This document shows, one piece after another, positions 3,692 through 58,935 of a stretch of 64,000 nt of DNA. The DNA lies in NCBI RefSeq assembly GCF_000003815.2, contig NC_049991.1:2684570-2748569 (forward strand), in the 5' to 3' direction. Below the pieces are notes generated by a model, which was given only the letters and a program-made list of their open reading frames with translations, was not told the origin of the DNA and made no database searches. A program made the position numbers and the translations under genes. How positions within the stretch are numbered: position 1 is the stretch's first letter; the number at the start of each line of letters is the position of its first letter. Origin of the DNA: Branchiostoma floridae. Taxonomy: Eukaryota; Chordata; Leptocardii; Amphioxiformes; Branchiostomatidae.

Positions 3692-4178
3692 TCCTACACT
3701 GGTACGCGTACTGGGTTCCTAAAACTTAGTACCTAAACCTGCCTTACACAGTGGCAAAATATCTGAGCCCCGATCTTGTATGATTGATGGCAAAGTCGGT
3801 TTGGTTTGTTGAAGAGGCAAAGGCCTTGGCCCAGATACGCTACTCTACATACCGACTGTAGATGTAAACAAACACTTATCTCTACTCATGCTCGCATAAT
3901 GAGGTAGCCTTGTGCGTACAATTTGCCAAAAGGATTGACCACTGGGATGGCACAGATAGTCTTTGAAGAAGAAAGGTGTCTGATAATGACTAGAATTGTC
4001 TTTGGAAAGCACTCAACTTTGTTGTGGGCTCTTGTCTATGCATCAGTGCGTACGTGTCTGCAAGAGATGGAAGGAAGCAAAGGGTGTCTGAACTCTGATA
4101 AAGAAATGTTGTTGTCTGTTTTGATTCACATGACTGGGGAGTATTTGTCTATCAGACCGTAGTTTGCAAGGCTGTCAT
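3692..4178. other. no gene seen
   Basis: Short open frames only; nothing recognisable. Confidence 0.3.
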
Positions 4179-38454: not shown

Positions 38455-38600
38455 GGGCCCAAAATAAAGCTGGATGTGCACCCAAAATTGGAGCTGTGCA
38501 CCCAATTTTTTGTGCGTGCACCCAAATATTTTCGTAGGCTTATGTTCGTTAAGATGTCAGTAAACATTATATTCTTGGCATCTATGTGTTAGAAAGATAA
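38455..38600. mobile_element. Truncated GGTGCACC-word element
   Basis: Left part only: CCCAAAATTGGAGCTGTGCA, a second TGCACCCAAATATTTTCG and the TTAGAAAGATAATAAAA body shared with the copies at 8489 and 13435. The right end is missing. Confidence 0.6.
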
Positions 38601-39138
38601 TAAAATGTCTGCCATAGTGCTTGTTTATAAAAATTTGAAGTTCGAATCGATATTTTTTTTAATGCTCCATAGTAAGCGGTGAACCAGACTGAAGAGGACG
38701 TAGTACATGTATGAAAAATCACAACTGCAACCATCGTTCTTGCTGAAGACAGTCATGTTTTACAACTCGACCATCAACACTGATAAGAATATTCTCTCTG
38801 TTGATTCTCCTTTGACATACAGATAGGACTACAATGATTTACAGATAAACCACTCTTAATCTTAGTCACATTTTTACAGTGTAAAATTCATTCCGGGCGA
38901 TAGGAATAGGTAGGTATGCTGTAATATTTTCCAAGTATCATTATTTGGGTTCTTATCATAGGCAATGTGCGAATCTGTACTATTACAATTTATGAACATC
39001 GGGATATTTTCATTTTGCTCGAGATATTTCTTCTCTTTGACGTATAAAAATAGACATACTTTAAAACTTCTTTATCAAAATATACATATTCCTTAAAATA
39101 CCTTGTCGGCACAAGATATACTCTTGTCTGATTTCAGG

Positions 39139-40556
39139 TCATTCTTTTAGAAAGTCCTCAACTTGTTCCACACCGGATGAAATTATCACCCTGTCCGACT
39201 CCTGGTTGTCCAGCCACATCGTCAGTTCACTGGCTACCAGCGACAGCACCTTCCTGGTGTGAAAGTCCTGGTACTGTCGGTAGTAGGGACAGGAGAGGTC
39301 GGTACCGGTGGGGGTGACGCCTCGCTCGCATGCCGACAGCTCTACGCTGTTGGTCGACTCCCACGGGCAGGGATCGTCGGCGATGTAGTTGACCAGGACC
39401 GTCTCACCTGCGACCACGTCATGGTAGATGGGGGCTACTCTGGACAGGCGGGGATCGTAGTACGTGCGGGGTGGCGGACTCTCTGCTGGTGCCTGCCTCT
39501 TCGCCTGTGGTCGGGAGTCGTCTTCTAGCTCCTCAGCTTTCCTCTTCTGACGCCTTCGACGGACCTTATAGCCATCAGCAGCCGTCTCCTTCCCAGAAGC
39601 TGCCCGTTTGGCTCTGCGGTAAAGGCGGGCGGCTCGACGGACAACCCTACCGCAGCTGTGCTCGACCGTGCCCTTCACGTCGCCTTCCCCCTGATGTGCA
39701 ACAATCTTCTCTGCTGCCTCACGGAGCGTCGCCACTGAGACACGGCGATCATCGGGACGAACAGTGGGCTCATCGTGCTGAGAGTCGCTTACTGGGGAGA
39801 CAAAATGGACAAAGTCGAACGAGATAACGGTATCTTCAAATGACACAAAAAAATCATACAGCCTTGGAATTTGTAAGGTATGATCTGAAATAAATCTATC
39901 TGTAGAGAGTGTGAGAGATGACAGTCTCAAGTTACCTCTGTGTCCGAATGTTAGTGCCGTGAACGTCACACGTGACTAACCATTACTTCCATCGTGAACC
40001 ACTTCCACGGCTGGTTCAGCTGCCTCTCGGAGCGTCGCCACAGAGTCACGGCGATCACCGGACTGAACAGTGGGCTCATCGTGTTCAGAGTCAGTTGCTA
40101 GGGAGACAAAATGGACAAAGTCAGACGTGTTGGATGATAGTGGCATCTTCAAGTGACAACAGAATCATACAATGTCGATGTTAGTTAGACATCCAGTGTC
40201 ACTGACGAAGGATAGTGGATTATATCCGAAACATCTGACCATTTCCAAAACCATATCCAGTTGCTCGAGTAACTACTTTTTGGAGAATCATACAACCTTT
40301 GTATGTATGGTAGTTGATCTGAAATAAATCCATCAGTGGAGAACGTGGGAGATGATCATGACAGTCAGAAATTACCTCTGTGTCCGAATGTTAGTGACCG
40401 TGAATGCTAACCATGACTCCCGGTGGTCTCCACTTCCACACACAAGGCCGGTTCAGGAACGTCAACCAGTCTGCAGACGTCAGGACGCTCCAGACGGATG
40501 GGTGATCTCTCCTTCCCGCCATCACCCTGGCCCAAGTCGGGCGTCTTCGTCTCCAT
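39139..40556 (-). CDS. Uncharacterised three-exon basic nuclear-type protein, copy A (intact)
   Basis: I do not recognise the family. Exons on the minus strand: 40556-40412 (ATG), 40097-39981, 39791-39139. All junctions are phase 1 and the sum is 304 residues. Exon 1 begins METKTPDLGQGDGGKE. Exons 2 and 3 both start with the block TDSxHDEPxVxxxDRR...SVATLREAAE, so the second exon is a duplicate of the start of the third. Exon 3 then has a strongly basic stretch (RRAARLYRRAKRAASGKE, KVRRRRQKRKAEELE), probably a nuclear localisation signal. A conserved C-terminal part follows (TYYDPRLSRVAPIYHDVVAG...DPCPWES...YYRQYQDFHTRKVLSLVASELTMWLDNQESDR). This copy keeps 15 extra C-terminal residues (IISSGVEQVEDFLKE) lost in the others. 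Intron 1 contains a dispersed repeat at 40195-40285. It lies head to head with copy B, 926 bp apart. Confidence 0.72.
40195..40285 (+). repeat. Dispersed repeat with hammerhead-like CTGACGA...GAAAC core
   Basis: CTGACGA (40202), a GGATA/TATCC hairpin, then GAAAC (40228) are followed by CCAAAACCATATCCAGTTGC. The latter tail recurs in both arms of the inverted repeat at 61372-61618. Lies in intron 1 of copy A. Confidence 0.5.
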
Positions 40557-41482
40557 ATCTCCAGAAAATGGGCGGCAAACTTGGCGAAAAGTGTGTCAAG
40601 TTGACTCGACAACAAGGCGGCGTTCGAAAACTTTCGAATTTGACACAACGCGCAGGCGCGGTGCCCATTTGTGACGTCTTGTATAGAACATTCGAACAGT
40701 GGTTCGTTTTGAGGTAAACAACGTCAGAGGGGAACGACTGTAGGGCTGATGCAGATTTCACGATCGGATGCTATGTAACTTATTCATCTGCAATCAACAT
40801 ACAACAACGGTACACTCTTTGTCTGGCAGCTTGTAAGCAAAGTCTTATTGTATCCTTACATGATGGTAGATCATTGTAGATAAGAAAACGGCGGAATTGT
40901 TAACTTTGATAGTTACTCGCAAGTAGTTAGCGTTACCACAAACGTATTTTTTTCTTCGGAAATGGCCGAAAATTAATGCGCGTACGGATGCTAACCATTT
41001 AATCAAATCAACATGGCCTTATCATGTAAAGAATTAGATTAGTTTCCTAAAATCATAAGTGTAGTTCAATTGCTTTGTATCTGCAATTTGCCACACATTG
41101 TAACATTTACAATAGTGCAATCAAGTGCTTATTATTGTATGAATACCGGACATATTCATACGCTGTACTTAAAGTTCAGAAAGCATTCTATCAGAAAAAA
41201 TGCCGTGCATTTACTATAGCTTCGGGTTTTATAAACCAGACCTGAAGCTCTACACGCTTGCGGCAACTCAGGTAGTCAAACATGTGCACTTAGCGGGTTT
41301 GCCCTGTTATGTTGTTTTCCTCCAAACGAACCGCTGTTCGAATGTTCTATACCAGACGTCACAAATGGGTGTGGCGCATGCGTGTTGTGTCAAATTCGAA
41401 AGTTTTCGAACACCGCCTTGTTTTCGAGTCAACTTGACACATGCACACTTCTCGCCAAGTTTGCCGCACATTTTCCGGAGAT
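40557..41482. promoter_or_regulatory. Shared spacer between the head-to-head copies A and B
   Basis: Inverted-repeat arms next to both start codons contain TTCGAACAG(T/C)GGTTCG, TGTGACGTC or its complement (a CRE-like site) and (T)TTCGAAAGTTTTCGAA. The same words flank the starts of copies C and D. The position suggests a bidirectional promoter; that is inference. Confidence 0.45.
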
Positions 41483-42728
41483 ATGGAGACGAAGACGCGA
41501 GACTTGGGCCAGGGTGATGGCGGGAGGGAGAGATGACCTGTCCGTCTGGAGCGTCCTGACGTCTGCTGTCTGGTTAACGTTCCTGAACCCGCCGTGTGTG
41601 TGGAAGTGGTTCACACCGGGAGTCATGGTTAGCATTCACGGTCACTATTCGGACATTCGGACACAGAGGTAATTTCAGACTGTCATGATCATCTCCCACG
41701 TTCTCTACAGATAGATTTATTTCAGCTCAACTACCTTACAAAGGTTGTAACGTTACGATTCTTTCTATCCTTTGGAGAAAGTGTTACCGTCCAACTCGTC
41801 CGACTCTGTCCATTTTGTCTCCCTAGTAACCGATTCTCAGCATGATGAGCCCGCTGTTCGTCCCGATGATCGCCGTTAGTCTGTGGCGACGCTCCGAGAG
41901 GCAGCTGAACCAGCCGTGTGTGTGGAACTGGTTCACACCGGCAGTCATGGTTAGTCACGTGTGACATTCACGGTACTAACATTCGGACACAGAGGTAATT
42001 TGAAACTGCCATCTCTCACGCTCTGTACTGATAGATTTATTTCAGATCAACTACCTTACAAATTCAAAGGCTGTATGATTTTTTTGTGTCATTTGAAGAT
42101 ACCGTCGAACTCGCCCGACTTTGTCCATTTTGTCTCCCTAGTAACCGACTCTCAGCATGGTGAGACCATATTTCGGTCCGGCGATCGCCGTACGGGTGTG
42201 TCTGTGGCGACGCTCAGAGAGGCAGCTGAGAAGGGGGAAGGCGACGTGAAGGGCACGGCCGGGCACAGCTGCGGGCGGAGTGTCCGTCGAGCCGCCCGCC
42301 TTTATCGCAGAGCCAGACGGGCAGCTTCTGAGGAGACGGCTGCTGGTGCCTCTAAGGTCCGTCGAAAGCGTTAGAAGAGAAAGGTTGAGGAGTTAGAAGA
42401 CGGCTCCCGACCACAGCCGAAGAGAAAGGCGCCAGAGAGTCCGCCACCCCGCACGTACTACGATCCCCGCCTGTCCAGAGTCGCGCCCATCTACCATGAC
42501 GTGGTCGCAGGAGAGAGTGTCCTCGTCAACTACATCGCCGACGATCCCTGCCCGTGGGAGTCGACCAACAGCGTGGAGCTGTCGGCATGCGAGCGAGGCG
42601 TCACCCCCACCGACCTGTCCTGTCCCTACTACCGACAGTACCAGGACTTTCACACCAGGAAGGTGCTTTCGCTGGTAGCTAGTGAACTGACGATGTGGCT
42701 GGACAACCAGGAGTCGGACAGGATGTAA
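41483..42728 (+). pseudogene. Three-exon family, copy B (pseudogene)
   Basis: Exons 41483-41627, 41827-41949 and 42142-42728 align with copies A and D. It is broken by three in-frame stops: TGA at 41534 in exon 1 (TCA in the intact copies), TAG at 41877 in exon 2 and TAG at 42372 in exon 3 (CAG in copy D). The block between the LREAAEK motif and the basic stretch is also shortened by deletion. Splice sites are kept. The C-terminus ends at an early TAA, as in copy D. An AATAAA lies near 42964. Confidence 0.8.
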
Positions 42729-43189
42729 AATTCATCCGATATGAAATAAGTTGGGGACTTTTTAAAGAATGACCTGAAATCAGAAAAGAGTATATCTTGT
42801 GCCAACAAGGTATTTTAAGAGATGTATATTTTTATATAGAAATATTGTAAAGTATAGCTTTTTTGATACGTCGAAGAGAACAAACATTTTGTTTACAAAT
42901 TGTATGCCACTATAGTGGCTTAAAACCACAGCGCCATTGAAGAACAGGCTGGCTTTTTGACCAAATAAATCTATATAACGAAAATCGTGCAAATCCACAA
43001 GTGATGTGACAGCCTCTTATGATGAAATTTCAAAACATTTGTATGAAATAATATTACACTATGAGTCAAATATTGCAGTGCGCCTACTACCCCTTTGCAT
43101 TCATGAAAAATTTGAAAAACATGACAAAATTTTTATGATGGACTGGTCCAAATGACTCTGCTGTTGTCGTTATTACCTTCGCCAAGAAG
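42729..43189. other. 3' flank of copy B, shared with copy D
   Basis: Aligns by eye with 57510-57950 downstream of copy D, including the words CCAAATAAATCT and TTTTATGATGGACTG. This shows that the duplicated block extends beyond the genes. Confidence 0.7.
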
Positions 43190-43850
43190 GTTGTTCACGG
43201 TGACGTTTGTGGTTGGGTTTGTGATTGGCCGGGATGGGTGGGTTTGTGATTGAGAGTGTTTGTGACTGCGTGGGTTTGTGGTTGGGTTTGTTATTGGCCG
43301 GGATGGGTGGGTTCGTGATCGAGAGTGTTTGTGGCTGCGTGGGTTTGTGGTTGGGTTTGTGATTGGCCGGGTTGGGTGGGTTTGTGATTGAGAGTGTTTG
43401 TGACTGCGTGGGTTTGTGGTTGGGTTTGCGATTGACCGGGTTGGGTGGATTTGTGGTTGAGAGTGTTTGTGGCTGCGTGGGTTTGTGGTTGTGTTTGTGA
43501 TTGGCCGGGTTGGGTGGATTTGTGGTTGAGAGTGTTTGTGGCTGCGTGGGTTTGTGGTTGGGTTTGTTATTGGCCGGGATGGGTGGGTTTGTGATTGAGA
43601 GTGTTTGTGACTGCGTGGGTTTGTGGTTGGGTTTGCGATTGGCCGGGTTGGGTGGATTTGTGGTTGAGAGTGTTTGTGGCTGCGTGGGTTTGTGGTTGGG
43701 TTTGCGATTGGCCGGGTTGGGTGGATTTGTGGTTGAGAGTGTTTGTGGCTGCGTGGGTTTGTGGTTGGGTTTGTGATTGGCCGGGTTGGGTGGATTTGTG
43801 GTTGAGAGTGTTTTTGACTGCGTGGGTTTGTAGTAGGGTGTGATTGTGGA
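43190..43850. repeat. Minisatellite, 69-bp unit, about nine copies
   Basis: Each unit contains TTTGTGATTGGCCGGGATGG, then GAGAGTGTTTGTGACTGCG and GGTTTGTGGTTGG. Sixty-nine is a multiple of three, so long Pro/Thr/Asn/Ser-rich frames stay open on the minus strand, and Trp/Val/Gly-rich ones on the plus strand. I do not regard them as genes. A single remnant unit survives at 58285-58350 downstream of copy D. Confidence 0.88.
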
Positions 43851-45400
43851 CAGCATGACTGAAGAATCTGTGGATGGATCGGATCTTCCAGTGGCAGGTG
43901 GTTCGGTGTAGCTAAAACAAACCCTGAATCCTGCAAAGCGGGACCTCATTTGCCTGCTATGTGAGGGAATGCTAGAATAAGCTTCTTTTGTTGAGATAGG
44001 GATTACATACTTGTTTATATCCAAGCATAGATTATGTAGATGTGGAAATGTCATTTGCATAATCAGAATATTTCATGGAAATATGAGGTCTCCAAACTCT
44101 TATTTAGGTGTTGAAAGACTTTCCCATTGAATTATGCGTCAGCAAAAAAGCGCTCCTAGGACCGTCGACCTAGGACGAAATATAAACTTTCATCGCTCCT
44201 CAGTGCTATTGTTAAAGGGGCGAGCTCTGCAAATCAAGCGAACAACTTTATGGCATGTTTCTTCTCACAAGGTGCTTACTTGTCCTTATATGGGCCAGTA
44301 AACATTTGACCTTGTTGTCTTCGAATGCATCAAGGCTTTTTTTAAAGAATGTATTGAACACCTGGATGTTTGACGTGTGTACACCTACATGCATGTGTCG
44401 ATCTATTTAAATTCAGTTGCATGTCCAAGTAGAAAGGTACAAAAAACGGAAGTTCTGCTGCAGTACCCAGGTCACATACTAGGGGACCCAAAATCGACCT
44501 TGACCTTCACCTTTCCAACACCCACCCACATACCAAATATCGTTGTATTCCTTCAAAAGATCTTTGAGTCATGCTGACCACAAATTTAAAAATCCGGAAA
44601 CACAAAGAAACACACCCACCCAAAATAATATCACCATTTTTCATGGAGATAAAAATACTGTATTTTCAGGGTCTGTAACTTGTGTGCTGATAAACTCAAG
44701 TTCAGCAGGAAGTAAAGTGAAATGAAATGGGCAAAAATGGGAGCCAACGGGGGAACTCCCACTCTGTTCTTGGCGAAGAGCCATTTTATGTTTCGCGTGT
44801 TGCTATGGTAATTTGACATCAAAGGTGAGTTGCCATTGTTGTGCACACAAGCCTGGCCTAACTATGCTACATATCTACACCGGAAAACCTAACGTTATCC
44901 TATTGCAACTTTCAACAGACTTCATATTGCACGTGATGTGCGTGTGACATACCGGTTGAATGCAATCATATGAAACTTAATCTGAATCTATTGTGAGTTA
45001 AGGGAGTCACACCTGGATGAGGCACCTAGCCATAAATATTTAAAGAATGTCATCCATAAAATGTACCTGCTGTGGCCTTATGAAGGAACCAAAGAAAGAA
45101 TACCGTGCATGGCATAGAAAGACAAGTTTTATATGCTATAGTGACATTTGAAGGACCTTCAATAATGTACGACGTATAACAGACACTTGACGTCACAAGG
45201 AAGTAACGGGGGTTGCAACAGGTGAGATCTGAAAGGTGGGTACCAGGAGGGGGCATCCCCATGCTATATGTTTGTAAATTATACATATCAATTGTCTCTT
45301 TTGCTATTGTGATCTTCCTTCAAGTGTATGATTGAAAGACTTTCCGGGTTTATGTTATGGTATGTTGCTTGATGTTACCATGAACAGATGCACTTGAGAC
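43851..45400. other. intergenic, no gene seen
   Basis: No recognisable coding. Between 43850 and 43960 it still aligns with 58340-58450 downstream of copy D, then the match ends. Confidence 0.4.
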
Positions 45401-45406
45401 AAAGTC

Positions 45407-45446
45407 TATATATACATGAATAGAAACTTGCTCCCTGTTTCAGTTC
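45407..45446 (+). promoter_or_regulatory. TATA box and initiator of the WSC/WxxW gene
   Basis: TATATATA at 45407-45414 lies about 30 bp upstream of an initiator-like TTTCAGTTCAC at 45438. A first non-coding exon would then run to the donor AGAGA/GTGAGT near 45490. The next exon starts at 45928 after an AAGCCAG acceptor and carries the ATG. Confidence 0.6.
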
Positions 45447-48400
45447 ACATTCACATCGACGCTGTGCTGAGTTCTCACGCACCAAGAGAGTGAGTTTCAT
45501 GTTCTGAATTTATATCCAATACTTTCTGGGTTGATGTTTTCTTTTGTTTCCTTTAGAAAATTGTGTATTCCAAGTTTTCGACCTGAGTAAGGGATCTGCT
45601 ACAGTGCAAAGCAGATTTACCTGCTGTATGACAGTATCTAATGGCTATAAAGCCGTGTCCCAGCTGCAGTTGTTATGCCTTGTATGTTAGTTTTAATAGG
45701 CCACTGCGTCTAAGTGTATCGCTGTTTTGTATGCTGAAATGGAAAGATCATGACAGTGACTATATCTGATTATTGTTTCTGGTCAATAACTGTACATGTG
45801 CATTTTCTTGGCCTTGGAACTTGCTTGCCGATTGAACATGTCTTTATATGTCTTTGTAATATATCTGCTGAGACTACGTGAAACAGCAGGCATGAGTAAC
45901 GTTTTTTCTCCCTTTTTCTTAAGCCAGAAGGATATCCTGAATCCGTCCACGTCATGGCGTTGGATTTAAAACTGCTGACAATGGCGATGATGGCGCTCCT
46001 GTACTCAACAAGGGCACAGCGCACTGAAGGTATAGATAAATTAATTTGCAGCTAGTATTTCATTCATATCTGTGGTCTGTGGTAATGCACGGTTTCGAGG
46101 TTTTAGTTCAGATTCCTCACTATTTACTGCGAAATGACATTAAATGCTAACAAGCTAAAAACCACAGTGGTGTGTTTCAGTACCCTGGTCGCCAGAGAAC
46201 AGCGCTCGCGGCTACGATTCTTTACCGAGCCCCTAGCAACATCCCCCGTAAATCGAATTTAGCCGGCCCGGGAAGTTACGCATTCACGCAGTAACTTCAA
46301 GGCGTAACTCCCTTTATTAATAGCCGGCTAAGTTGTACTATGATATCCAGGGTGAACATTTTGTCTGGGCCCCTACCTCTCTTCCTCGTATGACCCAGTT
46401 GTTTGCGTCTGACTTGAATGTAAAGCGATTCTTTGACCTCGCCGAGGTTCGCCTCTACAAAAATTAAGTGCAACTTATGCAAATTTTGACTTAATTTGCA
46501 TACCTTCTGAGGGAAATCTATATTTACAGTGTTTTCCATTATAGGACTAAAATACGTGTAATATAATGTTGATGTAGTTTGTGGCAGGTGGAAGAGTAGC
46601 AGATACCAATCATGCAAATTTGTACCAAGATTGCATAATTAATGTGGAAGAAGTGTCATATTTCTTCTAAGTAATGTAGTAAATGATTGGATTGTCAACA
46701 TTGCGACCTGTGTAAGTTAGTTGAAGGTGTACATAACCAAGCATGAATTATGCAGATGTGAAAGTCATTTGCATATTCAGAATATTGTATGGAGACATGA
46801 AGTCTCCGAACTCTTGTTCCATGTGTTTCTGTTTGATTTTGCCATGGACTTCTGTATGCCTTTGTCATACTTCGATTTCACAGTACTTACTGTATTTCAT
46901 TGGTCTTGACTTCAGTTGAGTTGTTAATAAATATGTTCCCAGATAGTATTCATTGATGTAATGTGGAGGAGTTGAGAAACTGTTATCACTTAAGTTTCAC
47001 TTCAGCCAGAATTTGTGTACATATTTTTTTTTTCAGAATGTATCCGTTGGACTCCCTGGTTTAACCGTGACGGTCCCAGCGGTAGCGGTGACTGGGAATT
47101 ATTATCCAACATTCGGCGGGAGAACCCCGGGCAGATCTGCTCCACTGCCTCGGCTATCCAGGCTCGTGTGCGAGGGACACACGTGGACGCTTCCCAGACA
47201 GGAGAGCGGTTCCAGTCATATGACAAGACAGTTGGCCTTGTCTGTAGGAACTCCAACCAGAGTGACCGAAAGTGTCTGGACTATGAAGTGCGCTTCTGCT
47301 GTGAACCTAAGCCTGGTACAAGTTGATATTTATAATGATAGTTCACCTTTATCCTTGAGATAACCTATATCCATTAAAAAAACACAAGATATTTATATAT
47401 GGGTGTCAAGTCAACGGTTGGTGATTTCAAATTGCCATATTTGTTTCAAATTGCAGTTTTTTGAAGCCACTGACATTACCAAACACTAACCCTCTAAAAA
47501 CAACGAATATAGATATATCCCCGAACGATACATCCCCGCGGATAAAAGTGGACTTAAGTGTTAGTACCTTCTGTCTTTGCCTTTCCCATGTAAAGCAATC
47601 TTATACAATGTATAATATTTTCTATTGCACGGTTGGGTTATCAGTCTTCCTCTTGTTAGATAAATTAATGAACCCTTGTCATTTTAAAGGTCAAATAGCA
47701 TGATTTATTCCTTCTTTCTCACATATATTTTGAAGGGGGGATCTATACCCCCAGCCAGAAACAGATGACCAGATGATATGGTGTTTTTTTCATTAACTCC
47801 CCAGCCCCTACAGAGTATGACAAACTTCAGTCGGAAGTGGAAAAGTTGGCACAGGACCTCCCCCGGACTTTGCAAGAGCTAGGACTAACCAGTGTCGTAC
47901 AAGATGTACAGGAGCTGAAAACTGACGGTAAGGGCACGGTCATAAAGGTCGTGCGATCATGGTACGATTTTGACGCCATTTGATTTTCACGGCAGGCCGT
48001 GGCAGAAGCATTACCACCAACAAGGATCCAAAACAGCCTTTTGAGTGCCAAGACAGTTGAAGTTTGCAGGACACGAACATGGCTGTCCTCCAAAATGCCC
48101 GAGATTACCGATCGTACGACGATCTCACCACCTATGTGACCGCGCTCTTATACCCCTGTCACATTTGGCGAAAATAGATCAGACGACGACTCTGCGGCAA
48201 TCGCCCGAGCCTCGCTTATAATTATAACTTTATTGCACAACAATTGTACATGGTACAAAGTATGGCTTATATGTGACAGGGACGGTTTTCAGGTGAAAAA
48301 TACACGCAACCCTCTGTCGATCTTAAATATGACCGATCTTCCATCGACACGCCGAAGATTGTGGATAATGTGACAGGGGTATCATAAAGCCCCCTTTACA

Positions 48401-51400
48401 AATCAAGAATTTAGCTCGGCCGAGTTGTTGGCGAGCTCCAAATGGACATTTTCGGCCGGAGTATGACCGGCGTTTTGGCGATTATGCGGGCCTCGGTCGA
48501 TATTTTGCAGCTCGGCCGGCGTTTGCGGGGCACTTGCAGCTGCGCTTAATTTCAGCGAGGCCTCGGCGGCGAGTATTGAGCTCGGAGAGCTCGTCAATGG
48601 GTTGCATGTAGCTCGACCGGAGCTTGTCCGAGCAATGGCCAAGACTTGGCCAATACTCGGGCGGCAACCCGACGGTTTTTGACTCTCTCTTTTTCGGTCG
48701 GAGTTTGCCCGGAGTCTTCTGCCTCGCGCCAGACTCGTTCGGGCTTCCTGCAATAACCGGACGATATTCCGTCGGACTTTTAACGTGTTGGGCGTGCTTT
48801 GGGCGAGCGTTGTGCTGGTGTCGCTGGGAGCTCGGGAGGGCTCCGGCAGAATTTTAACTATCACCTAATCAATTTGACACCTGTGTTGAATACGTGCCTT
48901 TGTTTTGGGCTTTTAACAGCTTGTTCCGAAATATAAGATAAATAAAGACTACTGTATGAACTTTTCTAAGAAAGCTGCGTACCTCCTATAATGTAAGGGA
49001 ATTGGACACGAAGACAGTACTTCCTATTTATTTTTTTTTGCTATAGGTTGGATGAGTGAGATCATATATTCTTCATGTCTGAAGGTTTCCAGTCTGAAAC
49101 TCGAACGGGCCTTTGCCGGCCTTCGCTCGAGGTTCGCCCAAGGTTTGCCCGAGGTTTGCCCGATTTCCGTAACGTCAAAATTATTGTATTATGTTGAATA
49201 AGACTGGTCTGTTCACTTTATGGCTCTTGTGGTAGTTTTCGGATTGGTGTATCACAACATTTCTGTTGATATTATTGTTTTCAGTGTACCCGTCCACTCC
49301 ACTCATGTCCTGCATTTATCCAGCAACTCAGAAATTAAATTTGACACAAATATTGGCTTTTTACAAGGTTATTCAGTTCTGACTTCGTCCATGTTCAAGA
49401 CATAGTACAATCCCATTAACAAATTATAATCAGTTGTGTTGGACGGACGTCGGACGGGCTCCGTCCATTTGTAAAGGGGGCAGATTTTCAGCGAAAAATA
49501 CAGCCGATACTCTGGCGATGTTGACATTCGGCGAGCTCTGACCGAGCTACAAATTCGGCCGGCGTCCGCATGCGGCTTAAGCAACCCTAGGGCTTCAGAA
49601 AATAGTACTGTAAGAACATAGTCTCAATCTTATCATTCCAATAAATGTGCTGATATTGTTACTGTACTACGATAGATTTTGGATCTATTGATGGCATGTT
49701 GCACTATAATACGCTGTTGTTTTTCTTTGCAGAATATCGTGGGTGCTACCAGGAGGGCTCTCGTCACAAGTTTCCAACAAAGGTCCTGACGTATGGTTAC
49801 ATGACTACGGAGAGGTGCACAAGTGCATGTAGGAATGCTGGTTTCACCTATGCTGGTATATGTCCATTTTATACACACATCTTGTATGATATATTCCGTT
49901 GCTATTTTTCTTTCCCAGAATGGGATTTTGTCTGTAATAAGCCATTCCTATTCTTTACTTTTGTTACCGGTAAGTTCTTCATATTTTCCCTGCCTTTTCT
50001 GTAGCCGTTGAGCGCTCCCGTCGCAGCTGGTCCTTCCATGACTGTTACTGTGGGACAGAAGAGGACTTCAACGGTCTGGGTGAGAGGGTGTGCGACGGTG
50101 AATGTAACAGCCGTTGCCGTGGCAACCCAACGCAAAAGTGCGGTGGTTGGTACAAGATGTCCGTGTACAAGATTGACGCAGGTCAGTTCTAAGAAATATC
50201 TATCTATCAGTATGCCCCTTTTGTGTCATGTAAAATGGTTTTGTCAACATCTTCCTAAAATGCTTGTGATGTACAGAACTTTACACACATAAATCCGATA
50301 GCTGAAGACAATAACAGTTTTGGTGATTGCTATGGGGGTCATTATATGTATTCATAGATACAATGATGAGTGTTGCTATTGTAACGCCAAATAACGTCAA
50401 CATCAGCATTGCTATTTTTGTTCCAGTTCCCAGTTGTGAGAGCGGCTCTCGGCAGGTCAGTCCTCACTGGTACCGGACCGGCACCATAACCACCCTGCAG
50501 TACAGGGGTGATCCGGACTCGAGACCCTTCGCCTTTGCAACTCCCACTCTGGATGGAAATAATACCATCCGTGTCCAAAGTAAGGATGGAACCTGACCCA
50601 AACCTTACCTCACTTACAGCTTTCCCAATATTATTTTTTCAACTTATTCAGTATCCTTTTATTCTTCATTAAATGTTTGATGACTTCTAACTACTGATTC
50701 CTTTTGCCTGTTGTTTGCATATTTCCTTTGCTTACTGGTTAGTTTTTATTTCTTTTATTGGATGGGCCGACTAATCTCTCTTTGCAGCCATAGGCTGACT
50801 TGCGGGGTGCTTACAATAGGTGGGGGTTAATTGCAAGTTTCTGGAGTGGCTGCCATTCAGGGTTAACTCTGGTGACAGTATACGTAATTGCCCCAGATGC
50901 GACCAGAGGATTGTAGATCCACTCGCACTAGGGAGGACTCTTTTCGATAAGTTTAGTGGGTACTGTAACGTGCTTGAGGTATTACTGTAACTGCGGAATG
51001 TTCGCAGTGGATTTATGTTCGCGGTTTTCGCGTTGGCCATTTCACCGCGAATCTAAAACCACCACGAACATTTTCCCAGGGCATTAAGATACTACAGTGC
51101 GTCGTGCTACCGCGAAATTAAGTCCACCGCGAAAGGTCCTTTTTTTCCACTACCGCGAAATTGAATTCCCGCGAACTTTACCGCATTTACAGACTGTCCT
51201 CAAACACGGGGCCTCCTTTAAAGGCCCTATCCAAGGAACAGCCCTAACCGAAACTTGGTTCACCCGAGAAAAGTACATTTCTCAAGGTCACAAGATCAAC
51301 GGTTTGGAACGCAGGGCCTCTGGGTTATGGGCCAAACACACTACAATTACACCGCAATGACTCCACTTGTCCTGTACTGTGATCTAATAGACAAGCCATT

Positions 51401-52930
51401 CTTTTGTCCTGTTATAAAATTTTGATTGGAGCCAACGTCTGTGGGTACTGTAGGAGTGATTCTACTCCATTTTGCTATATCCAGGCATGCGCACACTGGT
51501 GAATCTGACGGCAGACATTGAAGGCTTCCCGGACCGCTACCCCGCCACAACTGCAGAGGGTATGCCTAACCTGGTGTCTGTAGGTTCTGTAGGACTGATC
51601 GTTCGTTTATTCCTTTTTTCCATATCTATAGGCACACTGGTGAATCTAGAAGAGGACGTTGCGGGCTCCCCGGACCGCTACCCCGCTACAACTGCAGAGG
51701 GAATGCCTAACCTGGTGTCTGTGGGCCCTGTAGGACTGATCGTTCTTTTATTCCTTTTTGCCATATCTAGGCACACTAGTGAATCTGGAAGAGGACGTTC
51801 AGGGCTTCCCGGACCGCTACCCAGCTACAACTGCAGAGGGCATGCCTACTAACCTGGTGTCTGTGGGCCCTGTAGGACTGATCGTTCTTTTATTCCTTTT
51901 TGCCATATCTAGGCACACTAGTGAATCTGGAAGAGGACGTTCAGGGCTTCCCGGACCGCTACCCAGCTACAACTGCAGAGGGCATGCCTACTAACCTGGT
52001 GTCTGTGGGCCCTGTAGGACTGATCGTTCTTTTATTCCTTTTTGCCATATCTAGGCACACTAGTGAATCTGGAAGAGGACGTTCAGGGCTTCCCGGACCG
52101 CTACCCAGCTACAACTGCAGAGGGCATGCCTACTAACCTGGTGTCTGTGGGCCCTGTAGGACTGATCGTTCTTTTATTCCTTTTTGCCATATCTAGGCAC
52201 ACTAGTGAATCTGGAAGAGGACGTTCAGGGCTTCCCGGACCGCTACCCAGCTACAACTGCAGAGGGCATGCCTACTAACCTGGTGTCTGTGGGCCCTGTA
52301 GGACTGATCGTTCTTTTATTCCTTTTTGCCATATCTAGGCACACTAGTGAATCTGGAAGAGGACGTTCAGGGCTTCCCGGACCGCTACCCAGCTACAACT
52401 GCAGAGGGCATGCCTACTAACCTGGTGTCTGTGGGCCCTGTAGGACTGATCGTTCTTTTATTCCTTTTTGCCATATCTAGGCACACTAGTGAATCTGGAA
52501 GAGGACGTTCAGGGCTTCCCGGACCGCTACCCTGCTACAACTGCAGAGGGCATGCCTAACCTGGTGTCTGTGGGCCCTGTAGGACTGATCGTTCTTTTAT
52601 TCCTTTTTGCCATATCTAGGCACACTAGTGAATCTGGAAGAGGACGTTCAGGGCTTCCCGGACCGCTACCCTGCTACAACTGCAGAGGGCATGCCTAACC
52701 TGGCGTCTGACTACAGAGCTCTGCTAGCCTCGTTCCAGGCCCCTGGGCTGGAGCTGACACCAGGGACTAACACCACGCTGAAGCTGGACCAACACTTTAC
52801 CATTAAGTCCTACCCCTGTAGTCTGGAGTACAGCCCTACTGGTGGGCGTGGAAAGAGAGCAGTGATCATAAAAATCATAATCGTCAGCTACATACCTTTT
52901 GTGGTGATAATACAAATCATCGTTTACTAA
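45440..52930 (+). CDS. Secreted protein with WxxW and WSC domains
   Basis: Coding exons, all joined in phase 1: 45954-46029 (ATG), 47037-47315, 47805-47927, 49733-49855, 50005-50181, 50427-50579 and 52620-52930. They give 413 residues. Residues 1-21 are a signal peptide (LLTMAMMALLYSTRA). Exon 2 is a Cys-containing WxxW domain as in CILP and mucins (CIRWTPWFNRDGPSGSGDWE...CLDYEVRFCC). Exon 3 is a short helical linker. Exons 4-5 form a WSC domain (YRGCYQEGS...CTSACRNAGFTYAG...CYCGTEEDFNGLG...CNSRCRGNPTQKCGGWYKMSVYKI), a likely carbohydrate-binding module with its usual cysteines. The rest (PSCESGSRQVSPHWYRTG..., TLVNLEEDVQGFPDRYPATT...) is unassigned. The last 24 residues are very hydrophobic and could be a membrane anchor or intron read-through. 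The exact 3' end is uncertain. Extracellular role in matrix or glycan binding is inference. Confidence 0.8.
47341..47555. mobile_element. Inverted-repeat element, relative of 5542-5745
   Basis: GTTCACCTTTATCC at the left and GGATAAAAGTGGACTT at the right, with GATAACCTATATCC near the left. Located in the intron after the WxxW exon. Confidence 0.5.
48151..48381. mobile_element. MITE with TACCCCTGTCACAT ends
   Basis: TACCCCTGTCACAT at the left and ATGTGACAGGGGTA at the right are exact inverted repeats. The interior has a second ATGTGACAGGG. Confidence 0.7.
48389..49481. mobile_element. 1.1-kb inverted-repeat element rich in CTCGGCCG words
   Basis: GCCCCCTTTACAAAT at the left and ATTTGTAAAGGGGGC at the right are exact inverted repeats. 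The first 450 bp are GC-rich with many CTCGGCCG, GAGCTCG and TCGGGCG words, and the last part has GGTTTGCCCGA repeats. Open frames inside (for example 153 codons on the minus strand) are low-complexity. It sits in the intron between exons 47805 and 49733 of the WSC gene. Confidence 0.65.
50983..51192. mobile_element. MITE with TACTGTAA ends (copy 3, decayed)
   Basis: TACTGTAACTGCGGAATGTTC and CGCGAACTTTACCGCATTTACAG mark the ends. The GCGGTGG / CCACCGC-type interior matches 7422-7626. Confidence 0.55.
51195..51350 (-). mobile_element. Possible tRNA-derived SINE fragment
   Basis: On the minus strand, CCCATAACCCAGAGGCCCTG is followed by TTGATCTTGTGACCTTGAG, resembling the B-box and body of the SINEs at 60886 and 20236. 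Confidence 0.35.
51485..52700 (+). repeat. Nine tandem copies of an intron-exon junction of the WSC gene
   Basis: Splice acceptors followed by (G)CACACT(A/G)GTGAATCT start at 51485, 51632, 51771, 51913, 52055, 52197, 52339, 52481 and 52620. The spacings are 147, 139, 142 (five times... up to 52481) and 139 bp. The central units are identical by eye, so the expansion is recent. Each unit holds the first 83-86 bp of the last coding exon, a donor-like CTG/GTGTCTG and a 56-bp intron-like piece. Only the last unit has a changed donor (GGCGTCTG) and continues into the true C-terminus. Joining two units by that donor gives CTG GCA CAC TAG, a stop. Confidence 0.9.
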
Positions 52931-53666
52931 GTCTACATATGACGTTACAAGTATTTTGTAGTGACATGAGAATATTAGCTGGTATACAGCAAATACGAGC
53001 GATTATGTTATCTGTATTGCAGCTAATATAACGTTTTTTTTTGACGACGCCTCGGGGCCGAGACTAATGGAACAGTATTGTGTGTGAGTAGCTTGACACG
53101 AAGCAAATTACTGGGAGTGAAACATGAAAATGTTGCTTTTCTTGTATTACTTTTTTTATAGCTTTGTACTGAAGAATATATATATGTGACTTTAAGAGTG
53201 TTTTCATACAAGGAAGAAAAATTGTCAAATGGGTTGCCATGGAAAGACTTTGTTCGCCAGTTGTCACAAATATTTCCTTTTGGTGTGCCTAATGTTTGTG
53301 TTATCAACTTACAGCATTTTTATGACTTGTTTGTGGTGGTGTTAATTAAAGAGTAAAATTCCAGTGTTTGTGTGGGAAAACCCTTGGTTTTTTTGGTTTT
53401 TTTAAACCGGTTGTTGGAATTTGGGGAAAAACTGTTTTTTTTTTTGGGGGGAAAAAGTTTTGAAAAACCCAGAATGGTTATGGATTCGCCCCAATGTGCC
53501 CAGCTGAGGAATAGAAAAGGAAACAAAATTGGGTTAGATCCCAGTGACGATGAGACTAGTGTCACCATGTAGGTCAGAGGTTATAGGATTGCCATGGGGG
53601 CTCCTTGTCCTGGCTGCTCTGATTTTTTCATGGCAGCGACTGTCATATTCCCCTGTAGTAATCAAA
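52931..53666. other. 3' flank of the WSC gene
   Basis: Probable 3' untranslated sequence at first. ATTAAA occurs near 53345. No gene seen. Confidence 0.4.
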
Positions 53667-54113
53667 TACAGTCAAACCGGGCAAAAGCGGTCGATTTGGC
53701 CAGGTGGTCGGTTAGAAGAGTATCGACTCACAACATGCCAGATGCATAGTTTATATGGTTTCCGTTGTGTTTAATGGCAAATAGCAAGCACACGCGCGTG
53801 CATTCGCCGCCCGTTTATTTTGAACATAGCATCGTAATGTTAGTCAAAATCCTACGCAAACTGGCCAAATTCGGCACAAAATCGTGCTAGTTATCATTGA
53901 CAGTCGATGACACCTCAAGATTTGAAAATGAAGCGGTCGTTATGGGTAGGGATTTAGTCACAATTTTGGGCGGTCGCGGTGGCCAGGTGGACGTTGTTAA
54001 GAGGTCGCTTAATGCTTACGTCAATGGGGAAAATTTTCGGGACCGAGAAAAAGCGGTCATAATGACCAGGTGGCCGCTAAGAACAGGTGGTCGCTTGGGC
54101 AGGTCTGACTGTA
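53667..54113. mobile_element. Inverted-repeat element with TACAGTCAAACC ends, GCGGTC words
   Basis: TACAGTCAAACCGGGC at the left, GCAGGTCTGACTGTA at the right, with TA at both ends. The zones near both ends repeat AAGCGGTCG and CCAGGTGG words. Confidence 0.65.
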
Positions 54114-54555
54114 GTTCCCAGGCTAATTCATTGGAAACGTCTTACTCTTAGGCCACACAGATTTAATTTTATGAATGACATCCTCTGGAGACCCCAAAAT
54201 TAATGCGCGAGGGCAAAAACGAAAAATGCTAACAAGGAAAGATCCTTTCCTAAACAGGAAACATCAGTACATGCTTTCTAAAATGATACCTACGTAAATT
54301 AACTTTCTATATATGTAGCTTTTCAAACCCTGTTTACCGTATACGTACACTAGATATATCCCACCTGCAAGGAAACAAAATTGGCGATAACGTCAGAGAT
54401 CTTCAAGCTTGCGGCGCTGGTCTGCCACAGTCGCTACTGTCTGGAAATGCCGTCTAACCAGTTAAACTGTCTCTTCACTTTATATATAATCTACTTCAAG
54501 CAAATTGTCAAAGGTTAACTACTGATGACGTTGGAATCGAAAACGGACGTGATAA

Positions 54556-54830
54556 GCTGCATTTATTTATTTATTCATTTATTTTCACCATATATACAAC
54601 TAAAAACAAATGATAGATAGAATGAAAAGAAGACATGCAGGGGGGAACAGAAGCCTGAGCAGCCTTTCATGGCTCCCCCTCAGAAACTAGGTACAAGTAA
54701 TAATGAAACGTAATGTACATAGTCTAAATGATAATGAAAGATATGATATATAATCAACGCTAAATAATAACAACAAAGGAAAATAATTACTCTGATAGTA
54801 GACATGTTTTGTGAACGGGTTTGGCGCACA
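54556..54830 (-). mobile_element. Possible LINE 3' tail
   Basis: TTTATTTATTTATTCATTTATTT, read on the minus strand as an (AAATA)n-type tail, is preceded by a body containing GGGGGAGCCATGAAAGG. This fits a truncated non-LTR retroelement end. No coding part is seen. Confidence 0.35.
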
Positions 54831-55136
54831 ATGAAATACAGTAACCGTCACGCAATTGTTCTTGTCAAAATCACTTAAATCAGTTTGTTTCTGTACAGTT
54901 TTGTGAAAAAAAGTGTATTTTGGCTATTTTAAGGACCACATTCTGAAGTACACAGGCATAGACAACTTTCTGCATGGATAGTGTTTACACCTCACATCTG
55001 TTCGGGACTTTTCTGACTTTTCGGATGACGTCATTTCCAAATCTGAGTTTTGATTGGCTAAAGGAGGAAGCAAAACGGAAGGAATTTAGCAGGCCAGCAA
55101 AACAATATGTTTTCACCTTCGGGAAAACATAATTAC

Positions 55137-55254
55137 CTCCGTGTCCGAATGTAAGTTAGTGGCCGTGAACGTCACACGTGACTGACAATGACTCCCGGCG
55201 GACAGTTGAACTCTCCTTCCCGCCATCGCCCTGGCCCAAGTCGCGCGTCTTCGT
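55137..55254 (-). pseudogene. Three-exon family, copy C (relic, exon 1 only)
   Basis: The minus strand from 55254 reads as exon 1 of the family (ETKTRDLGQGDGGKESS), but the start codon is ATC instead of ATG. About 70 bp of the exon are deleted before GGGAGTCATTGTCAGTC. No exon 2 or 3 follows downstream (54100-55130). It lies head to head with copy D, as A does with B. Confidence 0.7.
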
Positions 55255-56133
55255 CTCGATATCTCCAGAAAATGGGCAGAAAACGTGGCGAGTTGTGTCA
55301 AGTTGACTCGACAACAACTTTCGAATTCGACAAATTACGCTGCGCCGCATCAATTTGTGACGTCTTGTATAGAACATTCGAACAGCGGTTCGTTTTGAAG
55401 TAAACAACGTCACAGAGCAACCCACTACTGTACTCTACTGTAGAGGTGTAGCGTTACTTGTACATATTTCAATATGTTATTTGACTGGTTTATCTGCAAT
55501 CAAAGCACAGTAATGGTACCATCTTTGTCTGGCAGTTTGTAAGCAAAGTCTTATTGTGTTCTTAGATCATTGTAGATATGAAAACGGTGGAATAGTCAAT
55601 AGCTTCTTCGAAAAAGGCCAAACGTTGATGCTCGCACGGATGTCATTCATATAATGGAATCAATATGACCTTATCATTCATAGAATTAGATTAGTTTCCT
55701 AGAATCATTTAATAGATGTATAGTGTAATTCAATTGCTTTGTAAGTTGTTGCCACACATTGTAACCTTTACAATTGTCGTGCAATCAAGTTCTTCTTCCT
55801 CTATGAATACCGGACATGTTAATACGTTGTATACTTTGCAGAAGGCATTCTGTCAGAAAAATGTCGTGCACTTGCTGTACTTCGGGATTTATAAACCAGA
55901 CTTGACGCTCTACACGCGTCCGGAACTCTGGTAGTCACTCAGTAGCGGGTCTGCCCACCTCTGATGTTGTTAACCCCAAAACGAACCGCTGTTCGAATGT
56001 TCTATACAAGACGTCACAAATGGGCGTGGCGCCTACGCGTTATGTCAAATTCGAAAGTTTTCGAACAACGCGCCTTGTTTTTGAGTCAACTTGACACACT
56101 TCTCGCCAAGTTTGCCGCACATTTTCTGGAGAT
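55255..56133. promoter_or_regulatory. Shared spacer between copies C and D
   Basis: Aligns with the A-B spacer. TTCGAACAGCGGTTCG, GTGACGTCTTG and CTTTGTCTGGCAG(C/T)TTGTAAGC are conserved. Candidate bidirectional promoter by position and conservation. Confidence 0.45.
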
Positions 56134-57509
56134 ATGGAGACGAAGACGCGCGACTTGGGTCAGGGCGATGGCGGGAAGGAGAGTTCACCTGTCCGTCTGG
56201 AGCGTCCTGACGTCTGCTGTCTGGTTAACGTTCCTGAAACAGCCGTGTGTGTAGAAGTGGATCACGCCGGTAGTCATGGTTAGCATTCACGGTCACTAAC
56301 ATTCGGACACAGAGGTAATTTCAGACTGTCATGATCATCTCCCACGTTCTAAACTGATAGATTTATTTCAGCTCAACTACCTTTCAAAGGTTGTACGATT
56401 CCATTTTATCCTTTGGAGAAGAACTCGTCCGACTTTGCCCATTTTGTCTCCGTAGCAACCGACTCTCAGCATGATGAGCCCGCTGTTCGGCCCGATGATC
56501 GCCGTGTGTACACGTCTGTGGCGACGCTCCGAGAGGCAGCTGAACCAGCCGTGTGTGTGGAACTGGATCACACCGGCAGTCATGGTTAGTCACGTGTGAC
56601 GTTCACGGCAACTAACATTCGGACACAGAGGTAATTTCAGACTGCCATCTCTTACGCTCTGCACTGATAGATTTATTGAATTCAGATCAACTAACGTTAA
56701 CCTACAAATTCAAAGACTGTATGTTTTTTTGTCATTTTATGATACCGTCCAACTCGTCCGACTTTGTCCATTTTGTCCTCCTAGTAACCGACTCTCTTAG
56801 ATTTATTTCAGCTCAACTACCTTACAAAGGTTGTACGATTCTTTCTTATCCTTTGGAGAAAGTGATACCGTCCAACTCGTCCGACTTTGCCCATTTTGTC
56901 TCCCCAGTAACCGACTCTCAGCACGATGAGCCCGCTGTTCAGTCCGATGATCGCCATGTGTCTGTGGCGAAGCTCCGAGAGGCAGCAGAGAAGATTGTTG
57001 CACATCAGGGGGAAGGCGACGTGGAGGGCACGGTCGAGCACATCTGCGGTAGGGTTGTCCGTCGAGCCGCCCGCCTTTACCGCAGAGCCAGACGGGCAGC
57101 TTCTGAGGAGACGGCTGCTGGTGCCTCTAAGGTCCGTCGAAAGCGTCAGAAGAGAAAAGTTGAAGAGTTAGAAGACGACTCCCGACCACAGCCGAAGAGA
57201 AAGGCGCCAGAGAATCCACCACCCCGCACGTACTACGATCCCCGCCTGTCCAGAGTCGCGCCCATCTACCATGACGTGGTCGCAGGAGAGAGGGTCCTGG
57301 TCAACTACATCGCCGACGATCCCTGCCCGTGGGAGTCGACCAACAGCGTGGAGCTGTCGGCATGCGAGCGAGGCGTCACCCCCACCGGTACCGACCTCTC
57401 CTGTCCCTACTACCGACAGTACCAGGACTTTCACACCAGGAAGGTGCTGTCGCTGGTAGCCAGTGAACTGACGATGTGGCTGGACAACCAGGAGTCGGAC
57501 AGGGTGTAA
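56134..57509 (+). CDS. Uncharacterised three-exon basic nuclear-type protein, copy D (intact)
   Basis: Exons 56134-56278 (ATG), 56456-56584 and 56908-57509 join in phase 1 to give 291 residues. Exon 1 begins METKTRDLGQGDGGKESSP. Exon 2 (ATDSQHDEPAVRPDDRRVYTSVATLREAAEP) and the start of exon 3 (VTDSQHDEPAVQSDDRHVSVAKLREAAEK) are duplicates. The basic segment is RRAARLYRRARRAASEE...KVRRKRQKRK, followed by the conserved C-terminal region ending in MWLDNQESDRV. It stops 15 residues earlier than copy A because GTGATAATT became GTGTAAAATT, a change shared with copy B. An additional decayed copy of the exon-3 acceptor region lies near 56778-56798. AATAAA near 57729 may be the poly(A) signal. Confidence 0.75.
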
Positions 57510-57955
57510 AATTCATCATCCGATATGAACAAGTTGGGGACTTTTTAAAGAATGACCTGAAATCTGAAAGCAGAGTATATCTTGTGCCAAAAAGGTCTTT
57601 TAAGAAATATGTATATTTTCATATAGAGATATTTAATAAGTATATCTATTTTGATACGTTTGAGAGAAAAAAAGAAATTGTATGCCATTATAGTGGCGTA
57701 AAACAGAATCACAGGCTGGCTTTTAACCAAATAAATCTGTATAATGAAAATTGTACAAATCAACAAGTAAAGTGATAGCCTCTTATGATGAAGTTTGAAA
57801 ACATTTGAATGAAATAATATTACACTATGAGTCAAGTATTTCAGTGCGCCTACTACCCTTTGCATTGATGAGAAATTTGTGAAACATGACATCATAAAAT
57901 TTTATGATGGACTGACATGGTCCAAATGACTGTTATTACCTTTGCCGAGAAGGTA
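57510..57955. other. 3' flank of copy D, shared with copy B
   Basis: Aligns with 42729-43165. It holds no gene. Confidence 0.7.
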
Positions 57956-58270
57956 AGCTAAGGGCGCAACCCGCCGCACGTGCAAATACGTGCTGTCTAC
58001 GTGCATAAACGTGGGAAATCTTTTAGGATCCGTAAGTGGTAAGTACCGCCTCCGTACGAACTCATAGGGAATCCGACGGATTTTGCAGCGCGCAGACACG
58101 CCGTAGAACTTTACGTGAGGCAAAACTTTGTGCTGCGGATTCGCCCCCGTACGTGCCAGTACAGGTGACGCGCCTGCCCTGTACAGCCTGAATGTTTTCA
58201 GAAATTGGACGTGGCCTCCCAAAAAAACGTACGGACAAATTGCACGTACGGCGGGTTGTGACCTTAGCTT
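57956..58270. mobile_element. MITE with AAGCTAAGG...CAACCCGCCG ends
   Basis: AAGCTAAGGGCGCAACCCGCC at the left is mirrored by GGCGGGTTGTGACCTTAGCTT at the right, and ACGTGCAA by TTGCACGT. The interior is rich in ACGTGC and GTACG words. It interrupts the sequence that in the A-B block runs straight into the 69-bp minisatellite. Confidence 0.72.
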
Positions 58271-58284
58271 TGCGGTGCAGTTTG

Positions 58285-58450
58285 TGATATTGGCCGGGAT
58301 GAGTGGGTGGTTTGTGTTTGTGACTGCGTGGGTTTGTAGTAGGGTGTGATTGTTCGTGGGCAGCATGACATACAGGAGAATCTGTGAATGGATCTTCAAG
58401 TGGTAGTTGGGTCGGTGTAGGGAAAACAAACCATGAATCATGCAAACCAA
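58285..58450. repeat. Remnant of the 69-bp minisatellite and its flank
   Basis: TTGTGATATTGGCCGGGATG...TTTGTGACTGCGTGGGTTTG corresponds to one unit of the array at 43190-43850. The following DNA (GGGTGTGATTGT...GATCTTC(C/A)AGTGG) matches 43835-43940. Confidence 0.8.
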
Positions 58451-58935
58451 GACCTCATTTGCATGATTCAATCTTTATTCATTAAATCAACATTACAGAT
58501 TAGTAGCCTACTAGTAGAGCATTCCATTATAAAGTGAAATTCATCTTCAATAATAAGCTTCGGACCTTATAGGTTTCAAATATCATCTGTAGTAGAGACT
58601 AGAAGAACTGAGATACAATTTTCTGTTCATTGGGCATGTACATCTAATGTTTCTCATATTTTGTTGGGGCAATACACAAACACACAAACGCATGTACCTT
58701 TGGTCAGAAGCTACATTGTAGTATCTGCCTTTTTCAATACTAAACAAGCTACATCAAATAGACTCTCCTATTGTAGACAACAACATGTTCACTTAGCAGG
58801 CCCCCTATACTATATACTAGTAGCTTGCAATTGGTTGGGCTAGATACTAGTAGTTAGGCACACTCTAAAGTTGGCTTTAATAATAATAATCACCAGGTGT
58901 ATTTTGCCAGCCAGTAGGTACCGAAATTATGAGCA

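Follow-up and report, generated by a model that had tools for sequence, protein, structure and literature searches.

In Drosophila, hsp70 copies lie in an inverted-pair arrangement and encode an ancient, well-known protein; Bettencourt and Feder, in 2002 (cited in PMC2793543), are said to have reported concerted evolution of these genes with gene conversion. Head-to-head gene pairs usually consist of unrelated genes. Pairs of this kind with bidirectional promoters are described in PMC7817982. Mammalian sex-chromosome palindromes are presented as inverted gene copies whose arms are kept alike by gene conversion (PMC8981503, PMC6790999), and as gene-bearing, large structures with arms >99% identical (PMC8981503).

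In a window of 64,000 bases from the lancelet Branchiostoma floridae (the whole stretch of DNA analysed here), a WSC-domain gene sits between two head-to-head pairs, AB and CD, and a further such pair, E-/E+, the third in the genome, lies on contig 6. These resemble the mammalian palindromes in being inverted gene copies with similar arms, but the lancelet arms are about 1.3-1.7 kb long, with within-pair identities of 90-98% in coding and 80-85% in upstream sequence. As in hsp70, duplicate genes appear to have been homogenised by gene conversion, whereas the lancelet protein has no recognised family. As in bidirectional-promoter pairs, two divergent genes start within about 1 kb of each other; in the lancelet, however, both genes and both promoter halves are mutual copies. 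We regard this as a well-founded example of an orphan family, of a kind already known, and not as a new system. What is new here is that common palindrome ancestry is seen in spacers and flanks, yet arm similarity is greatest within a locus. This family was not noticed among the matches listed in the literature on palindromes, head-to-head pairs and orphan genes. The members in the window are the following.

40556-40412, 40097-39981 and 39791-39139 (span 39139..40556), minus strand: gene A, 304 aa, open, GT/AG and phase-1 model
41483-41627, 41827-41949 and 42142-42728 (span 41483..42728), plus strand: gene B, a pseudogene with three in-frame stops
55131..55419, minus strand: C, a promoter and truncated exon-1 remnant without the C-terminal module
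56134-56278, 56456-56584 and 56908-57509 (span 56134..57509), plus strand: gene D, 291 aa, open, GT/AG and phase-1 model

A preliminary description of this DNA had recognised two head-to-head pairs made of four copies of a three-exon gene. The pairs hold, and so does the statement that A and D are intact with conserved splice phases; the count of four gene copies does not. B is interrupted by premature stops at 41534 (TGA), 41877 (TAG) and 42372 (TAG). In C the start codon is mutated from ATG to ATC at 55260, the homology stops near 55131, and the exon-1 remnant is fused to a piece resembling the start of intron 2 (and likewise intron 1). The distance of 926 bp given between the starts of A and B is exact from the exon coordinates, while the 879 bp given for C and D has to be replaced by 873 bp from the start-equivalent of C, which has no ATG, to the start of D. 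The two ATGs of E-/E+ are 739 bp apart. The C-terminus of A extends beyond the stop position of D.

Nine loci with the C-terminal module were detected by two protein searches of the 513 Mb genome (431 contigs), and eight loci by a DNA-level search; every candidate was scored (9/9 and 8/8, respectively). The last exon is open in eight of the nine module loci. Seven gene models were built (for A, D, E-, E+, F, G and H); in all of them the introns are phase 1, with GT at the donor and AG at the acceptor, and the three acceptors of F were confirmed after correction. Exon number varies, with two in E+, G and H, three in A, D and E- and four in F, so "three-exon" does not describe the family. No partner gene lies within ~10 kb of F or I in either direction, and ~39 kb separate G from H.

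The palindromes can be divided into arms, a non-palindromic spacer and outer flanks.

39024..40734: AB palindrome, left arm; seen in inverted repeats I11 and I7
41299..42887: AB palindrome, right arm; seen in the same two inverted repeats, I11 and I7
40735..41298: non-palindromic spacer, similar on the left to the C and E- sides and on the right to the D and E+ sides
42888..43952: outer right flank of B, common to D (57670-58464) and E+ of contig 6, and not to A or E-
57670..58464: outer right flank of D, common to B and E+, with a MITE-like insertion inside

Inverted matches include 39176-39485 with 57208-57517 (310 nt, 97% complementary) and 39024-39152 with 42759-42887 (129 nt, 82% complementary). 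Each arm begins ~180 bp before the ATG and extends ~160 bp beyond the stop position; AB and the contig-6 pair have these limits in common. The AB spacer includes a piece of dispersed repeat at ~40939-41035. The match between the right flanks of B and D noted in the preliminary description is real, at 84% for 42619-43191 against 57400-57954 (an alignment that takes in the end of the last exon) and 78% for 43758-43956 against 58269-58465, and duplication of head-to-head palindromes to both sides of the WSC gene was likewise borne out. We considered whether AB and CD could be a haplotype artefact; the B- and D-side spacers are ~75% identical, which we judged too different for alleles.

Spacer comparisons followed the side of the palindrome: all 6 same-side pairs scored above all 100 shuffles (D with E+ barely so, at 31 against 30), compared with 0 of 9 opposite-side pairs. 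The outer flanks of A, B, D, E- and E+, scored after masked N stretches were cut out, gave the same picture (4/4 same-side pairs above all 100 shuffles, 0/6 opposite-side). The left-side match of A and E- scored 59 in the outer flank and 57 in the spacer. Because similarity in the spacers and outer flanks follows the side, the AB, CD and contig-6 palindromes come from one ancestral palindrome.

The arms, by contrast, group by locus. Their alignment has 1242 gap-free columns (exon 2, which is absent from E+, is omitted), 286 of them variable: 43 split by locus (A, B, D versus E-, E+), 2 by arm (A, E- versus B, D, E+), and the remaining 241 do not decide between the two. Each of the seven regions counted, including upstream sequence, introns and 3' sequence, leans towards locus, so that arms are closer within a locus than to corresponding arms elsewhere. 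Copy C was excluded from the arm, outer-flank and codon counts. The arms of each palindrome appear to have undergone concerted evolution, for which gene conversion from arm to arm is the simplest explanation. A run-length (GENECONV-like) test of 10 pairs gave no conversion tract that survives correction, the best being E-/E+ at p=0.03. GC3 is 0.66-0.71 in the arm copies and 0.70 in the single gene F (0.61-0.63 in G, H and I); as the arm copies do not exceed F, there is no sign of GC-biased conversion.

The best-conserved part of the protein is the C-terminal module (alignment A2, nine loci), located in the two intact genes of the window as follows.

57228..57506, plus strand: C-terminal module of D, about 90 aa, in alignment A2 of 9 loci, omega 0.30
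39187..39465, minus strand: C-terminal module of A, in alignment A2, used in the codon model

A basic, NLS-like stretch is present in the linker region, in agreement with the nuclear-type stretch and C-terminal module described earlier. In a codon model of the eight open copies, omega over the last exon was 0.44 (2dlnL 68.3 versus omega 1). For the module it was 0.30 and omega=1 was rejected (2dlnL 60.1); among A, D, E- and E+ it was 0.22 (2dlnL 13.7). The module is under purifying selection. The linker, in a test that excludes I, had an omega of 0.81 among A, D, E- and E+, which does not differ from 1 (2dlnL 0.5), so selection on the linker is unproven for these four copies. The main sets exclude B, and its inclusion gave 0.19 for the module and 0.61 for the linker. 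The A-D comparison suggested at the outset gave a Nei-Gojobori dN/dS of 0.49 over the last exon. Between more distant copies dS is about 0.6 to 1.7. An AlphaFold model of the module, with three near-identical window rows as input, had a pLDDT of 45.6 and was too poor for use.

No Pfam family was found at cut-off for seven rows of alignment A1 (part of the last exons of D, A, B, E+, E-, F and G) or the long frame of I, and the same scan contained no transposase, reverse transcriptase or other mobile-element domain. The reading as a host-type family of no assignable kind is upheld: neither of the two outcomes named in the preliminary description as refuting it, a match to a known transposon protein or hundreds of dispersed copies, was seen in the Pfam scans and genome searches. 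No relative was found among PDB sequences; PHROGs gave no match for D and a best E of 0.038 for G. Pattern searches gave 43 stretches in viral contigs and 48 in bacterial and archaeal genomes, with none confirmed in either, and Rfam gave no match at gathering score across the 64,000 bases. Two candidate relatives were rejected. Mitochondrial ribosomal protein mL49 (Img2) was hit by a single-sequence query at E=1.6; this match disappeared with the module alone and with profiles A1 and A2, and PF05046 is absent from the Pfam results. An APOBEC4-like deaminase (PF18774) reached 12.4 bits against a cut-off of 26.7 (E=0.15), and with a typed consensus only.

Upstream of the genes, two conserved blocks were delimited in the window.

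40620..40734 (approximate limits), minus strand: conserved block upstream of A that can be aligned in A, B, C, D, E-, E+ and F
55967..56065, plus strand: conserved block upstream of D, which matches the corresponding block of gene F on contig 7 at 84% over 100 aligned bp

As dS between the last exons of D and F is 0.58, the upstream block evolves more slowly than synonymous sites. Among window tiles, upstream CpG observed/expected ratios of 0.80-1.20 rank between about the 75th percentile and above the 95th, which makes these regions only partly exceptional. A putative bidirectional promoter is probably shared by the two genes of a pair. Neither AATAAA nor ATTAAA was found within 500 bp past the E- stop, and for A the first lies at 476 bp.

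Three other explanations were weighed. Separate recent inverted duplications at each locus would make the arms alike without conversion; the grouping of sites by locus and the tract test without significant result fit such a history. It would not be expected, however, to produce spacers and outer flanks that match by side (A, C, E- versus B, D, E+), nor identical arm limits, and we regard it as unlikely. The shared arm limits of AB and the contig-6 pair would also suit a DNA transposon of low copy number, with the unit as its coding part and the gene inside long inverted arms. We find this highly improbable, since nine detected copies (not the hundreds that a mobile element might be expected to show) and kept introns speak against a mobile-element ORF, as does the lack of a transposase or other Pfam match at cut-off. 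Furthermore, the unpartnered F and I and the distant G and H show that not every copy is in a palindrome, homology of the right flanks extends well past the arm as in segmental duplication, and last-exon omega is well under 1 despite the divergence between copies.

That divergence also bears on the idea of decaying, non-functional duplicates under relaxed constraint only. The broken B, the remnant C and the linker omega fit it, but eight open last exons at such dS values and the rejection of omega=1 for the module make it very unlikely.

We therefore consider it likely that this is a small host gene family of nuclear proteins, with palindromes copied as a block and arms homogenised within each. 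Its genes would combine a variable number of phase-1 N-terminal exons, a fast-evolving basic NLS-type linker and the conserved module of ~90 residues. A head-to-head duplication of one copy, centred on a promoter that both genes share and that is probably bidirectional, may have given rise to the palindrome. Block copying would then have carried it between contigs 13 and 6, and a local copy on contig 13 would have placed it on both sides of the WSC gene; C and B would have decayed later. Inside each palindrome the two arms would have become homogenised, with gene conversion between them as the simplest route, as the spacer and the outer flanks drifted apart. The basic stretch suggests that the protein is probably nuclear, and the module may have a DNA- or chromatin-binding role. 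Only tentatively do we propose that the module is a previously unclassified lancelet-only domain, arisen or surviving there, of nuclear regulators whose dosage and sequence could be kept uniform by palindrome conversion.

These pairs provide a compact example of palindromic genes evolving in concert in an invertebrate chordate. Because asymmetric spacers and flanks label each arm, homogenisation is demonstrable from one genome and could be dated with a second lancelet. The family also draws attention to a protein module that is under selection and belongs to no assigned family, in a genome widely used to reconstruct chordate ancestry.

The preliminary description had proposed a three-exon gene family with four copies in two head-to-head pairs, A(-)/B(+) and C(-)/D(+), on both sides of a WSC-domain gene. 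Intact three-exon genes, with GT/AG splice sites and the conserved phase-1 introns, are indeed present at A (304 aa) and D (291 aa), while all three exons of B are interrupted by a stop (41534, 41877, 42372) and C is only a remnant. C, in which the promoter and a portion of exon 1 survive and ATC has replaced the start ATG, lacks the module, the conserved C-terminal part of about 90 residues; its exon-1 remnant is joined to a fragment resembling the start of intron 2 and, over a shorter stretch, intron 1. The distance of 926 bp between the starts of A and B was exact, and that between the start-equivalents of C and D is 873 bp instead of 879 bp.

The search space was a genome of 513,431,437 bases in 431 contigs, in which the window is contig 13, 2684570-2748569; its large low-numbered contigs and the WSC and Mucin2_WxxW domains near the family agree with Branchiostoma floridae, whose published assembly is described as having 19 chromosomes (PMC7269912). 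A whole-genome DNA search identified eight places with family sequence, and protein searches in which G and I each served as the query gave an identical set of nine module loci, not hundreds, although these counts depend on the candidate filter of the search.

Module loci identified by whole-genome protein search
A, B and D: contig 13, in the window
E- and E+: contig 6, a head-to-head pair
F: contig 7, a module locus
H and G: contig 2, divergent, about 39 kb apart
I: contig 9, a 495-codon open frame

No hidden partner was detected by tblastn at E up to 1e-3 within at least 10 kb on each side of F or I, or in the entire stretch between H and G. Among seven gene models, three exons were found in A, D and E-, two in E+, G and H, and four in F, so that the three-exon structure holds for part of the family only. 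Every intron in all seven is in phase 1, and internal exons could thus be duplicated without a frame shift; for F, a model with AG acceptors at the internal exons encodes a protein of 377 aa. Judged by eye, exon 2 is similar to the first part of the last exon fused to the closing part of exon 1, and introns following these exons are alike over their first ~50 bases in A, B, D, E- and F, which looks like the outcome of unequal exchange. Intron starts after phase-1 exons of F are alike among themselves (L010, the sequence containing F, 3205-3274, 3497-3566 and 3839-3908; GTTAGTCA.GTGTGAC...) and similar to those of A, D, E- and E+. The shared bases may act in splicing or regulation, or may reflect an earlier duplication of exons.

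The module had been left without a family, and no convincing match was found in Pfam or PHROGs, among PDB sequences (single-sequence and profile searches), in viral contigs or in bacterial and archaeal genomes. The predicted structure gave an unusable model. The basic, nuclear-type stretch described previously is present in the copies as a cluster ahead of the module (by eye); it resembles a bipartite NLS in A, B, D and E and is less pronounced in I. On this basis the protein may well be nuclear; binding to chromatin or DNA is guesswork. Over the last exon, which contains the module, dN/dS from a codon model (omega) was 0.44 in eight open copies (2dlnL 68.3 against omega 1). The module alone gave 0.30 (2dlnL 60.1) in these copies and the part upstream of it 0.51 (2dlnL 21.0; seven copies, I left out). 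Among A, D, E- and E+, omega was 0.22 for the module (2dlnL 13.7) and 0.81 for the upstream part (2dlnL 0.5, no difference from 1), so it is clearly the module that selection preserves. The A-D comparison proposed earlier gave a dN/dS ratio of 0.49 (dS 0.093, dN 0.045; Nei-Gojobori). Eighteen module columns are invariant across the nine loci, including two cysteines.

The arms, the inverted gene-bearing halves of each palindrome, have common limits: about 176-184 bp before the ATG in A, B, D, E- and E+, and 154-162 bp beyond the stop position in A, B, E- and E+. In the spacer between arms, all six same-side pairs (A, C, E-; B, D, E+) scored above all 100 shuffles, the weakest being D-E+ (31 against a shuffle maximum of 30), and none of nine opposite-side pairs did. 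Outer flanks, compared without C, whose outer part is lost, gave the same picture, with four of four same-side pairs (A-E- 59, B-D 314, B-E+ 116, D-E+ 131) and none of six opposite-side pairs above all 100 shuffles. These matches by side indicate that one ancestral arm is represented by A, C and E- and the other by B, D and E+, the palindromes descending from one ancestor.

Several repeats and domains lie around the arms in the window. A MITE-like element inserted in the D 3' flank (57954-58271; inverted ends matching at 28 of 32 bases) is 85-90% identical to the other places scored, with 40 scored of 2,479 first-look genome candidates. Part of a longer dispersed repeat lies in the A-B spacer (40939-41035; 40 scored of 646 candidates); matches from contig 6 skip this part, so the contig-6 spacer seems to be without it. 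Another dispersed repeat (38500-38664; 40 scored of 1,344) lies directly outside arm A. The B 3' flank contains a 69-bp minisatellite of about ten units (43205-43911), which the D flank matches over a short stretch only. A Mucin2_WxxW domain (46994-47326, E 2.8e-26) and a WSC domain (49654-50004, E 6.6e-07) were also detected. In the WSC-region gene a 142-bp unit of exon plus intron is repeated in tandem (51565-52700; 100% identity in four of six 300-nt registers); true multiplication of the exon and an effect of the assembly are both conceivable.

About 100 bp 5' of the ATG can be aligned in A, B, C, D, E-, E+ and F, weakly in G and barely in H; D and F are 84% identical here, and dS at their last-exon synonymous sites is 0.58. 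From 250 bp upstream to 150 bp downstream of the ATG, a TGACGT/ACGTCA core occurs in all eight genes examined (A, B, D, E-, E+, F, G and H, the one in H lying at -204) and what we take to be an NRF1-like core in four (A, B, E-, E+); such short cores also occur by chance. Upstream CpG o/e lies between 0.80 and 1.20, against a median of 0.58, an upper quartile of 0.83 and a 95th percentile of 1.17 for window tiles.

Despite the shared ancestral sides, arm sequences group by locus at 43 sites and by ancestral arm at only two, among 286 variable positions in 1242 gap-free columns. The remaining variable columns comprise 141 with E- and E+ identical and A, B and D split, 61 E- or E+ singletons and 39 others. 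Locus grouping leads in every counted region (upstream 9:1, exon 1 5:0, intron 1 4:0, intron 2 3:0, 5' part of the last exon 8:1, module 9:0, 3' 200 bp 5:0), and coding identity is 97-98% for E-/E+ versus 88-90% for E-/A. The arms have therefore evolved in concert within each locus. Gene conversion would be the simplest cause; no conversion tract was significant after correction in a run-length test, and no GC bias was visible in GC3. These genes are a real host gene family that matched no described one in these searches, and their palindrome arms are a well-marked example of concerted evolution. This kind of system is already known; the protein is not.
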